Shown here one piece after another: positions 60,951 to 63,273 of a stretch of 64,000 bases of DNA. Positions within the stretch are counted from its first letter, which is position 1, and every line of letters begins with the position of its first letter. Below the pieces are notes generated by a model. It worked only from the letters and a program-made list of their open reading frames with translations. It did no database searches and was not told the origin of the DNA. Both the position numbers and the translations under genes were made by a program. The DNA lies in the NCBI RefSeq assembly GCF_002733835.1, contig NZ_NVWY01000009.1, forward strand, positions 1 through 64,000, written 5' to 3'. This stretch comes from Alcanivorax sp. (GTDB lineage Bacteria; Pseudomonadota; Gammaproteobacteria; Pseudomonadales; Alcanivoracaceae).

Positions 60951-62015
60951 TTATCCAATCGCGCAAAGTGCCGATCGGGTTTTGTCCCAGCCCAGGCAGC
61001 CATCGGTAATGGACAGGCCGTACTGAAGCGGCTTGTCCTGCCCCTGCCGGCCCTCATGGAGATGGCTTTCCAGCATCACCCCGGCGATAGCCGTTTGCCC
61101 CTGAGTTCGCTGCTGTAGCAGATCCTGTAATACCGCGGGCTGGCGCAGCGGATCCTTGCCGCTGTTGGCGTGGCTGCAGTCCACGATCAGTCGCGGGTTG
61201 CAGCCCTTGGCCTCCAGTGCAGCGGCGGCAGCTTGCACGCTGGCGGCATCGTAGTTGGGGCCGTCGTGGCCGCCGCGCAGCACCAGGTGGGTGTCCGGGT
61301 TGCCGGCGGTTTGCAGCAGTGCGCTATGGCCATGCTCATCCATGCCCAGATGCGTGTGTGGGTGAATGGCAGCCCCCATGGCGTCGCAGGCCACGCCGAT
61401 ACTGCCATCGGTACCATTCTTGAACCCCACCGGCAGGGGCAGGCCGCTGACCATTTCCCGGTGAATCTGCGATTCCGTGGTGCGTGCGCCGATGGCCGCC
61501 CAACTCAGCAGGTCGCCCAGGTAATCGGCGGCCATGGGGTGCAGTAGCTCGGTGGCGAGTGGCAAACCCAGCCGGGCCAGATCCAGCAGCAGGTGGCGAG
61601 ACACATTCAACCCGGTGGCAATGTCGTTGCTGCCGTCCAGATGCGGGTCGTAGAGCATGCCTTTCCAGCCCACGGTGGTACGGGGCTTTTCCACGTAGGC
61701 GCGCATGACGATGAAGATTTTATCGTCCAGCTGCGCACCCAACTCGGCCAGGCGGTGGCCGTATTCCAGGGCGGATTTGGGATCGTGAAGGGAGCAGGGC
61801 CCGGTGATCACCAACAGGCGCGGATCCTCGCCATTAAGGATATTGCGAATGGTCTGTCGGTGCTGTTCGATCTGTGTCGCCAGTGGGCCATCAACCGGCA
61901 GCCGCTCACGCAGCACCGTGGGGGAGGGCAGCGGCAGGCTGCGTCGTGGCGAAGCCTGATGGTGGTGGAGTCGGCTGTCGGTGTTCTCTGTCTGTTGGCT
62001 GTTTACCTGTTGCAT
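60951..62015 (-). CDS. 3-deoxy-7-phosphoheptulonate (DAHP) synthase, class I
   Basis: DAHP synthase joins erythrose-4-phosphate and PEP, the first step of the shikimate pathway. The 354-aa protein shows the class I (AroF/G/H) motifs VITGPCSLHDPKSALEYG, RAYVEKPRTTVGWKGMLYDP and LIVDCSHANSGKDP. Which aromatic acid inhibits the enzyme cannot be told by eye. Start ATG 62015 has an AAGGGAAGATC Shine-Dalgarno. Upstream lie a small ORF, an intrinsic terminator and an aromatic-rich leader peptide, which strongly suggests attenuation by Tyr/Trp/Phe. Confidence 0.94.
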   Translation of the reverse strand: MQQVNSQQTENTDSRLHHHQASPRRSLPLPSPTVLRERLPVDGPLATQIEQHRQTIRNILNGEDPRLLVITGPCSLHDPKSALEYGHRLAELGAQLDDKIFIVMRAYVEKPRTTVGWKGMLYDPHLDGSNDIATGLNVSRHLLLDLARLGLPLATELLHPMAADYLGDLLSWAAIGARTTESQIHREMVSGLPLPVGFKNGTDGSIGVACDAMGAAIHPHTHLGMDEHGHSALLQTAGNPDTHLVLRGGHDGPNYDAASVQAAAAALEAKGCNPRLIVDCSHANSGKDPLRQPAVLQDLLQQRTQGQTAIAGVMLESHLHEGRQGQDKPLQYGLSITDGCLGWDKTRSALCAIG

Positions 62016-62040
62016 GATCTTCCCTTAATACTGCGGCGCG

Positions 62041-62139
62041 TTATCGTCGCGCGTGATTCGTCGATCGTTGTGTGGCGGTGCGCTGACGTAGCCAGCGGCT
62101 AAATCGGGTGGTCAGGCGGTTCAGTCGATAGCGATACAT
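62041..62139 (-). CDS. Small upstream ORF, 32 aa, before the DAHP synthase
   Basis: An ATG at 62139 with an AGGGA Shine-Dalgarno (spacer about 7) starts a 32-residue frame beginning MYRYRLNRLTTRFSRWLRQR. It contains Tyr2, Tyr4, Phe13 and Trp16, and about one third Arg. It ends 25 nt before the DAHP synthase start, after the terminator hairpin. It could couple translation to the synthase or act as a second leader; it could also be chance. Confidence 0.5.
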   Translation of the reverse strand: MYRYRLNRLTTRFSRWLRQRTATQRSTNHARR

Positions 62140-62180
62140 GGTGTTGTCCCTGTGTTGCATTTGTCTGTTTGTCTGGGCAA

Positions 62181-62214
62181 TAAAAAACCCCGGGCGGGTT
62201 ACCGGCCGGGGTTT
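62181..62214 (-). terminator. Attenuator terminator of the DAHP synthase leader
   Basis: On the minus strand AAACCCCGGCCGG, loop TAAC and CCGCCCGGGGTTT form a stem with 12 of 13 pairs, followed by a run of six T (complement of 62182-62187). It lies 46 nt after the leader stop, ideal for attenuation. Confidence 0.85.
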
Positions 62215-62242
62215 CATGTATTCGGCAGGCGTCCCTTAACGG

Positions 62243-62269
62243 GCGCGCCTGAGTGTCGGTCAGGCGCGC
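62243..62269 (-). promoter_or_regulatory. Pause/antiterminator hairpin of the attenuator
   Basis: GCGCGCCTGA and TCAGGCGCGC form a perfect 10-bp stem with a 7-nt loop that spans the leader stop codon. The TCAGGCGCGCCC strand can instead pair with the downstream GGGACGCCTG, the switch expected in attenuation. Confidence 0.7.
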
Positions 62270-62373
62270 GAGCGGCTAAACCAATACCCGTAATAAGACG
62301 CAGCAGACACCGCCATACCGGCCACTGGGCCAGTCAGGGTGCGTGTGTTGAGCTGTGCTGCGTGCATGGTCAT
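62260..62373 (-). CDS. Aromatic leader peptide of the DAHP synthase gene
   Basis: A 37-codon frame (ATG 62373; ATG 62367 has the better AAGAGA spacing) encodes MTMHAAQLNTRTLTGPVAGM, then AVSAASYYGYWFSRSRA. Near its end Tyr-Tyr-Gly-Tyr-Trp-Phe occurs within six codons, all three aromatic amino acids together. The stop lies in the first stem, and a terminator follows before the DAHP synthase gene. Ribosome stalling at any of these codons would favour readthrough, so the gene would respond to total aromatic amino acid supply. Confidence 0.8.
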   Translation of the reverse strand: MTMHAAQLNTRTLTGPVAGMAVSAASYYGYWFSRSRA

Positions 62374-62586
62374 GTCTCTTGAATTCGCTTCATTGAAGGT
62401 CAAAGAGTAGCGGCAGCGCGGGAAGGGTGCAAGAGGCTGGAACCACGCCGCACGATAGCCGGTGGCTATTTCTGGATGCGGGTAGCGCTTTCGGGGCCGC
62501 CGCAAGCACGCGCAGCAGGACGATCCGGTATTTAGCCTGGTGCATGCAGCGTGAAGCGTGCTGCAGCCGCAGAGCGGCAAAAAAAA

Positions 62587-62604
62587 CGCCCACCGAAGTG
62601 GGCG
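62587..62604 (-). terminator. Intrinsic terminator of the lipoprotein gene
   Basis: On the minus strand CGCCCAC, loop TTCG and GTGGGCG form a 7-bp hairpin followed by eight T (complement of 62579-62586). It ends the gene at 62653. Confidence 0.9.
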
Positions 62605-62652
62605 AGGAAGGTGGAGACAATCCACATTTAAGACAAGACGGAGAAAACAGAA

Positions 62653-63273
62653 TCAGAAAATGTTGGAATCCTTGATCGCGTCGGTAATGGTTTTGGCATA
62701 GTGGTCCGCGCCTTTTTCCAGCCCCTTGAAGCCGCCGGTGTTGAAGCTGACGGTCTTGCCGGTCCAGACAATGGCTTTCTGGTCCACGTCCCACAGCTCC
62801 AGGCGAGCGGTATAGATGTCTTCGTTGACATAGAAGTCCGGGCTGTAAACCTGCGGAGTCATGGTCATGCCGGCACTGGCTGGAATGGCCACGCCTGGGT
62901 CGCCTTTGACCTCGGTGGTTTGTGTGGTCAGGTCTTCCAGGTGGATCGCCAGAGCACTGTCAAAACCGTTGTCCTTCATGCGCTTGGCCAGGTAGTCCAG
63001 GCTTTTGCCTTCGACGCCCTTGTCACCGTAAACGGTGTAGGCGGCGGTGGCTTTTATGCCCATGGTGGCAAACTTGGCGACAATGGCATCTTCCAGATGC
63101 TCACGCAGTTCATGATCGACCAGCACGCCAACCACCAGGGATTGGTATGGGCCTTTGGGTGTGGCCTGGGAGCCGGTTTCAGCGCTGATGACTTTGGTGT
63201 CGTGATAGCCGCTGGCACAGGCTGTGAGCAGTACGCTGAACAGGGCCAACAGGGTCAATTGCAGTTTTTTCAT
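62653..63273 (-). CDS. Predicted lipoprotein, unknown family
   Basis: A 206-aa lipoprotein with signal MKKLQLTLLALFSVLLTACASG and lipobox LTAC. The mature part has SLVVGVLVDHELREHLEDAI and ARLELWDVDQKAIVWTGKTV and seems to be a single alpha/beta domain, somewhat like DUF4136-type lipoproteins. ATG 63273 is preferred, with an AAGAGG Shine-Dalgarno. It lies just downstream of a DUF1302 gene but behind that gene's terminator. Function unknown. Confidence 0.82.
   Translation of the reverse strand: MKKLQLTLLALFSVLLTACASGYHDTKVISAETGSQATPKGPYQSLVVGVLVDHELREHLEDAIVAKFATMGIKATAAYTVYGDKGVEGKSLDYLAKRMKDNGFDSALAIHLEDLTTQTTEVKGDPGVAIPASAGMTMTPQVYSPDFYVNEDIYTARLELWDVDQKAIVWTGKTVSFNTGGFKGLEKGADHYAKTITDAIKDSNIF

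Follow-up and report, generated by a model that had tools for sequence, protein, structure and literature searches.

Two small aromatic-rich open reading frames upstream of a DAHP synthase gene in Alcanivorax: a likely attenuator leader matching Rfam family P15 and a candidate second leader

Introduction

DAHP synthase (DAHPS) catalyzes the first step in the synthesis of aromatic amino acids. In the his leader of E. coli, stems A:B, C:D, and E:F alternate with stems B:C and D:E; this stem logic would be common to that attenuator and to the leader described here (leader 1); the regulatory codons differ. In the ilvGMEDA and thrABC leaders, codons of several related regulatory amino acids are held in one leader, as they are here, although these systems serve other pathways and have a single leader. 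A preliminary description of the present locus had set it apart from single-amino-acid attenuators, a contrast that was overstated because such multi-amino-acid leaders are known.

For DAHPS itself, the aroR leader of aroF in C. glutamicum contains aromatic codons and acts by transcription attenuation (PMC4046766, PMC11802643). As presented in the passages on aroR, this system resembles leader 1 in having an aromatic leader peptide before a DAHPS gene and in acting by transcription attenuation. Compared by description, it differs in that its run is Phe-Tyr-Phe, with no Trp, and answers Phe and not Tyr, and the same passages mention no second leader, in contrast to the two leaders found here. 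On this analogy, aroR would be the nearest functional parallel, and it cautions against assuming combined sensing. For aroF of Shewanella and E. coli, a table in PMC2659441 lists an “Attenuator sensing tyr-tRNA” (predicted), which, as tabulated, differs from leader 1 in sensing a single amino acid and in being the structure of another gene region. Two leader peptides, ermBL and ermBL2, have been described for ermB (PMC8274638). As portrayed in the relevant part of that paper, ermB likewise has two leader ORFs before one gene, but it is antibiotic induced and translational, with no amino acid sensing. Multivalent leaders (ilv, thr) and two-leader systems (ermB) are already known kinds.

Rfam entry RF00627 is titled “Pseudomonas sRNA P15,” and P15 is named among the sRNAs detected by Livny et al. 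in the pertinent section of PMC2375449. In the accessible main text of PMC2965389, the terms P15, DAHP, and “aromatic” do not occur. A leader with all three aromatic amino acids, a tandem repeat of such a leader in a second leader, amino acid attenuation in tandem at two levels of one gene's expression, and a cis role of P15 were not found in the open literature, most subscription papers being outside the scope of the search.

Results

Leader 1 and the DAHP synthase gene

The window (the whole stretch of 64,000 nucleotides analyzed, from an Alcanivorax sp. contig) contained on its minus strand a class I DAHPS gene preceded by two small ORFs, termed leader 1 and leader 2 (Table 1). The predicted DAHPS scored 448 bits against TIGR00034 (aroFGH), for which the cut-off is 173, and also matched the Tyr-sensitive and Phe-sensitive enzymes of E. 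coli and other solved DAHPS. Three PF00793 hits and no PF01474 hit were found in the window's own genome. The second PF00793 hit (L184) was another aroFGH-type DAHPS, upstream of which no aromatic leader was seen when the sequence was read by eye, and the third, with 283 amino acids, was taken for KdsA by its length.

Table 1. Features of the DAHP synthase leader region in window coordinates
Feature	Position	Strand	Basis
Promoter candidate: -35 TTGCAC (62432-62427), 17-nt spacer, -10 TACTCT (62409-62404)	62404..62432	minus	by eye
Leader 1 ORF, ...SYYGYWFSRSRA stop	62260..62373	minus	ORF reading; Phe, Tyr, and Trp in P15-retrieved relatives
Match to Rfam RF00627 (P15), full length	62187..62302	minus	56.3 bits, E = 6.2e-11
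Arm A, GGGTATTGG, over Gly-Tyr-Trp codons	62281..62289	minus	A:B, 93.2% of cells paired (alignment A2)
Arm B, GCGCGCCTGA, contains stop codon	62260..62269	minus	B:C, 81.1% paired, 4 cells double-changed
Arm C, TCAGGCGCGCCC	62241..62252	minus	B:C and C:D counts (C:D, 95.2% paired)
Arm D, GGGACGCCTGCC	62224..62235	minus	C:D and D:E counts (D:E, 93.6% paired)
Terminator E (62213-62202):F (62197-62186)	62186..62213	minus	E:F, 95.1% paired
Leader 2 ORF, MYRYRLNRLTTRFSRWLRQRTATQRSTNHARR, preceded by CAGGGACAACACC	62041..62139	minus	core conserved; ATG and SD-like site
Leader 2 core, CGATTTAGC (Arg-Phe-Ser)	62098..62106	minus	conservation in P15-retrieved loci
DAHP synthase, class I (aroFGH type)	60951..62015	minus	PF00793, 266.9 bits; TIGR00034, 448 bits

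Leader 1 begins either at ATG 62373 (37 codons) or at ATG 62367 (35 codons) and ends with TGA at 62262-62260. The predicted peptide is MTMHAAQLNTRTLTGPVAGMAVSAASYYGYWFSRSRA, with the C-terminal end YYGYWFSRSRA. A search of the whole window in all six frames for hexapeptides with at least five aromatic residues, including Phe, Tyr, and Trp, gave a single hit, in leader 1, compared to a chance expectation of 0.15 per shuffle (mean of 20 dinucleotide shuffles). The leader peptides gave no Pfam family above the cut-off. Leader 1 looks like a switch sensing aromatic supply.

The preliminary description had reported a leader of 35 to 37 codons with a terminal Tyr/Trp/Phe run, a leader stop codon inside a perfect 10-bp stem, and a strong terminator 46 nt further on, before the DAHPS gene. 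These coordinates were rechecked and were correct: GCGCGCCTGA (62269-62260) pairs with TCAGGCGCGC (62252-62243) in a perfect 10-bp stem, and the distance from the leader 1 stop to the terminator arm, which starts at 62213, is 46 nt, with the gene following at 62015-60951. The terminator hairpin (62213-62186) ends in a six-U run, and the U run reaches 62182. Another strong terminator (window 62604-62579, minus strand; stem CGCCCAC/GTGGGCG, T8) was observed between the upstream gene (ORF 63282-62653) and the leader promoter.

A strict promoter scan of positions 61500 to 63000 on both strands listed no promoter, including upstream of leader 1, and the -35/-10 score of the window's own candidate (3.74) was not above the shuffled mean. 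Across loci, the mean best promoter score upstream of leader 1 was 4.55, versus 3.88 for shuffled sequences (n = 165), and the best-scoring site lay at a similar place in most of the 17 examples inspected, with 24 to 30 nt between the -10 element and the ATG. A promoter between the terminator and the gene had been named beforehand as the finding that would make the leader irrelevant; the stretch following the terminator showed no promoter signal (mean best score, 3.94 versus 4.04 shuffled; n = 152), and an internal promoter for DAHPS was rejected as a candidate.

Relationship to P15 and distribution

The match of the leader 1 region to P15 covered the full length of the family at a score below the gathering score of 70, whereas Pseudomonas members of P15 score far above that cut-off. 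Within the window's own genome, P15 matched at leader 1 only. Read in frame, the Rfam consensus of P15 gives SYYFGYWLSHWRA followed by a stop, as in a leader 1-type peptide, and the full-length match, the gene context, and the peptide end all agree with common descent with Pseudomonas P15. The family is entered in Rfam as an sRNA gene; here it is interpreted as a putative attenuator leader of DAHPS. Both this identity and leader 2 were overlooked in the preliminary description. Other Rfam matches in the leader region were all below their own gathering scores, and His_leader (RF00514) reached 18.9 bits at the locus, compared to a gathering score of 49.

P15 matches were accepted at E values up to 0.001 in genome searches run with strict filters, under which weak members may be lost. 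At the family level, 37 of 46 genomes had a match, and these were all the sampled members of three of its eight genera. The order sample gave 42 matching genomes among 390 (one false on inspection), and the class sample gave 7 among 369 (two false). The gathering score was exceeded in 8 of the 46 family genomes and in 20 of the 390 order genomes. Matches at L060/G404, L189, and L191 were dropped on inspection as false or chance matches. The class sample contributed two new true cases (L187 and L188), both with leader 1 and DAHPS downstream and both from one family outside the window's order; beyond the named groups, this was the only family in the class sample in which an outside match was found.

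When the genome collection was scanned by exact pattern for the cores of both leaders in tandem, at least 120 stretches were retrieved. Among the matches listed, 113 of 120 had DAHPS no more than 400 nt downstream; 5 of 120 (L082, L096, L097, L120, and L143) were too near a contig edge to judge, and 2 of 120 (L078 and L112) were without DAHPS and were dropped. Named genera among the matches listed included Pseudomonas, Stutzerimonas, Halomonas, Chromohalobacter, Halotalea, Denitrificimonas, and Alloalcanivorax. The Halomonas group below refers to family f37, which its named relatives suggest to be Halomonadaceae. One record titled “Pantoea sp. Ap-967” (L144) carried a putida-type double leader and DAHPS, and this title is probably a misnomer.

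Conservation of leader 1 and its codons

The P15-retrieved set comprised 63 loci, with the window's own locus counted in, and DAHPS was found downstream in 62 of them. Phe, Tyr, and Trp were all present in each of the 62 leaders with DAHPS downstream. The Tyr-Trp-Phe triad was found in 61 of 62 leaders, the exception being L026, with Phe-Trp-Phe after Tyr-Tyr-Gly; L026 is absent from the 61-row codon tables because the script required Tyr-Trp. The three positions before the conserved Gly were aromatic in 51, 53, and 59 of the 61 leaders, with swaps between Tyr and Phe and with both codons of each residue in use. Because Phe and Tyr replace each other ahead of the core and their codons vary at synonymous sites, it is the encoded amino acids themselves that are under selection.

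The core TAT TGG TTT AGC, part of which is covered by arm A, was fixed even at silent sites (59, 61, 58, and 58 of 61 leaders). Within the DAHPS genes of the whole set, TTT made up 38 of 623 Phe codons and TAT made up 134 of 967 Tyr codons. Amino acid sensing alone does not account for the silent-site fixity of this core. Codon fixity was taken from P15-retrieved loci only, because the 113 pattern-retrieved DAHPS loci contain both cores by construction. At L208, the leader 1 run was rearranged to FWYGYF, without the TATTGGTTT core, and thus the three amino acids survived loss of the nucleotide core. Conservation of the aromatic run and of the stems in relatives, which the preliminary description had put forward as the check to be made, was found for both.

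The string TTTAGC was common to both leaders (window 62284-62273 and 62106-62098, with the same cores in relatives) and was fixed at its silent sites. In both leaders, it places a UAG in the -1 frame directly after the Phe codon.

Alternative RNA structures in leader 1

The leader RNA folded with a z score of -2.87 relative to shuffled sequences, 2 of 200 of which folded equally well. The minimum free energy structure consisted of A:B, C:D, and E:F and the centroid structure consisted of B:C and E:F, so that the competing stems are real on paper. Pairing of the arms was counted on alignment A2, which contained 60 of 112 candidate leaders chosen for diversity, with the Halomonas group (because of its length) and short segments left out (Table 1). 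Changes on both sides of a pair were found in 23 cells of E:F (0 of 500 shuffles as high), in 4 cells of B:C (0 of 500), in 1 cell of A:B (41 of 500), and in no cell of C:D. Four double-changed cells were found in D:E (3 of 500 shuffles), the pairs of which were defined after the sequences had been inspected, with a bias towards the result. One D:E pair was A-U in 33 of the 60 rows, G-U in 21, G-C in 3, U-A in 1, and unpaired in 2.

A terminator was located by script in 156 unique loci out of 169. When arms were swapped between loci, E:F alone was clearly better than swapped (135 of 156), and the test was weak for A:B (97 of 155), B:C (81 of 156), and C:D (91 of 156). The locus's own E was better for D:E in 65 of 156 cases, i.e., no better than a swapped E, and, against shuffled D, the D:E duplex energy showed no advantage (mean z = 0.009; n = 156). 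For the Halomonas group, D and E motifs were found in 14 of 15 leaders and could be paired by 5 to 7 bp in a motif search that favors pairing, and own D:E pairs were slightly better than swapped pairs (-7.4 versus -6.8).

The pair counts fit a his-type switch, in which A:B, C:D, and E:F alternate with B:C and D:E, as the best model, with the antiterminator D:E as its weakest link. In static folding, the terminator persisted even with a ribosome placed on Trp, and the switch must therefore depend on timing. The earlier proposal of a DAHPS attenuator has good support in the conserved leader, in DAHPS downstream in 62 of 63 loci, and in the structure counts; the putative antiterminator D:E of the present model failed the energy and swap tests.

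A second small ORF before DAHP synthase

Leader 2 sits between the terminator and DAHPS; it begins MYRYRLNRLTTRFSRW... and holds Tyr, Phe, and Trp. Examples of leader 2 are MNRYYRNYRYDWRFSS..., MNYATYYRYDTCTAWRFS..., and ...YYGYWRFSELRS.... Where the leader 1 stop and DAHPS were 180 nt or more apart, 41 of 46 P15-retrieved loci had its core (CGATTTA or CTATTTAGC), compared to 0 of 15 with less room (<180 nt), which indicates that leader 2 is an optional module. The five roomy loci without the core were L009, L014, L023, L024, and L028, and L014 has N at that place. The core was the search key for the 41 leader 2 loci, and CGATTTA occurred in 52 of 8200 shuffled stretches.

An in-frame ATG with an SD-like site, open to the core, was found in 41 of 41 P15-retrieved loci and in 108 of 108 unique pattern-retrieved loci among the matches listed, under a lenient SD test (AGG, GGA, or GAG in ten bases). 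The leader 2 peptide contained Phe, Tyr, and Trp in 41 of 41 P15-retrieved loci and in 107 of 108 pattern-retrieved loci among the matches listed. Frame 0 was open over 30 codons around the core in 38 of 41 loci, compared to 15 and 3 of 41 for the other frames, and, among the pattern matches listed, in 108 of 108, compared to 9 and 0 of 108. Among 3971 Arg codons counted across the set's DAHPS genes, CGA, the codon conserved in leader 2, occurred 127 times. The leader 2 stop lay 24 to 48 nt before the DAHPS start in the inspected core-bearing loci of Alcanivorax, Alloalcanivorax, and Pseudomonas; in the Halomonas group, 8 of 10 loci had it overlapping the DAHPS start or no more than 5 nt away. 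Judging by its position and frame, leader 2 may control or couple DAHPS translation, and leaders 1 and 2 probably constitute a tandem aromatic sensor.

A covariance model (R1) built from the leader 2 region alone and run on the 390 genomes of the order hit 19 of them, with one weak hit without DAHPS; the hit at L210 was dropped on inspection as false or chance. P15 had missed four of the R1 genomes, one of them with the L208 locus. In each of the four, DAHPS lay downstream, and a hairpin resembling a terminator was seen by eye on the upstream side. At three of these loci, an entire aromatic leader 1 was present within the stretch searched, and the tail of one was seen at L206 in the stretch inspected.

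Further features were associated with particular lineages. Between the leader 2 stop and the DAHPS start, Pseudomonas sequences had mean fold z scores of -2.53 (n = 74) and -1.54 (n = 43) relative to mononucleotide shuffles, and against the same kind of shuffles no better fold was found in Alcanivorax (z = +0.71; n = 12) or the Halomonas group (z = +1.37; n = 7). A hairpin beside the ribosome site was observed by eye in this stretch in Pseudomonas, with arms that seem to change together (for example, at L099 and L126). At the end of leader 2, CGA-ACA (Arg-Thr), 3 to 4 codons before the stop, was fixed in 75 of 75 sequences of one Pseudomonas group, and the other Pseudomonas group had CGA in 40 of 43 and ACA in 37 of 43. 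Starting at the leader 2 core, 72 nt could be aligned without gaps between P. fluorescens/putida-type sequences and the Halomonas group (L053 to L062, L032 to L036, and relatives) in alignment A1, which held 46 of 83 sequences chosen for diversity; fixed bases included TCGG, GCCRCCTCCG, and GGTGGC. By eye, GCCRCCTCC is a candidate for an anti-Shine-Dalgarno role. For the 3' part of leader 2, a candidate pseudoknot (CGGTCGG..GCCACC.CCGACCG..GGTGGC) was rejected, with no double-changed pair and with one pair broken in 30 of 46 rows.

Discussion

Leader 1 (P15) is, with considerable confidence, a ribosome-mediated transcription attenuator of DAHPS, and leader 2 likeliest gates or couples translation. 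The regulatory codons of leader 1 would be the Phe/Tyr run and the Gly-Tyr-Trp-Phe that follows it. On a ribosome-free leader, A:B, C:D, and the terminator E:F would form and transcription would end; a ribosome at the stop codon would mask A and B, C:D and E:F would form, and transcription would again end. A ribosome that stalls at a codon for Tyr, Trp, or Phe would mask A alone, and B could then pair with C; D, thereby released, would bind the upper part of E and disrupt the terminator. Lack of any single aromatic amino acid would in this way lead to more flux into the common pathway, from which we infer combined sensing of Tyr, Trp, and Phe by leader 1. Readthrough transcripts would carry leader 2, ending at or shortly before the DAHPS start, and its likeliest job would be the gating or coupling of DAHPS translation.

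Several other readings of leader 1 were weighed against a combined attenuator. Attenuation may occur with only one amino acid, such as Phe or Trp, counting in the cell and the rest being passive, given that the stall position relative to B differs among the codons and that, in the passages on aroR, the Phe-Tyr-Phe of the C. glutamicum leader answers Phe and not Tyr availability (PMC11802643). This is an unlikely reading, although one with some weight, and against it stand the Tyr-Trp-Phe triad in 61 of 62 leaders, the presence of all three residues in 62 of 62, and the retention of all three in the rearranged run of L208. The great constancy of the GYWFS core would suit a TnaC-like arrest peptide sensing a free amino acid instead of tRNA charging; that core is constant in nucleotides too, beyond its residues, and the C terminus differs in the Halomonas group and the order differs in L208, all of which make an arrest peptide improbable. 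That P15 is mainly a trans-acting small RNA with a secondary ORF is implied by its Rfam listing as “Pseudomonas sRNA P15” and its naming by Livny et al. (PMC2375449, in the section cited above), and a terminated leader would resemble an sRNA, but a main role in trans is very improbable, given that 62 of 63 P15-retrieved loci are followed by DAHPS and that the encoded aromatics are under selection; P15 may have a side role in trans. Least credible was a constitutive terminator with DAHPS transcribed from an internal promoter and the leader irrelevant. The strict scan, empty on both strands, did not single out the upstream promoter, and the window's own -35/-10 score was ordinary, but promoter scores across loci exceeded those of shuffled sequences upstream of leader 1 (4.55 versus 3.88; n = 165) and not after the terminator (3.94 versus 4.04; n = 152).

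Leader 2 may not be a sensor at all, its conserved stretch being an RNA element within the ORF or the ORF merely coupling translation, and this reading has a little less than an even chance. Many codons after the core were fixed at silent sites in 75 Pseudomonas-type sequences (a group picked by the TCGG..CA motif), and the 72-nt stretch aligned without gaps between Pseudomonas and the Halomonas group, both of which favor this reading. Alcanivorax and the other Pseudomonas type are without the 3' element, yet the ATG, the frame, the aromatics, and the core were kept in them. We propose only tentatively, at somewhat under even confidence, that the two leaders form a two-stage aromatic checkpoint on one mRNA, in which leader 1, through its Tyr, Trp, and Phe codons, would decide on transcription past the terminator and leader 2, which contains these three amino acids as well, on DAHPS translation, conserved from Alcanivorax through Pseudomonas to the Halomonas group.

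On the reading of leader 1 as an attenuator, an Rfam family listed as a small RNA gains a concrete, testable cis role. The proposal is that one RNA matches entry into the shikimate pathway to all three of its end products. If leader 2 is a second sensor, a single gene would be under tandem amino acid attenuation at two levels.
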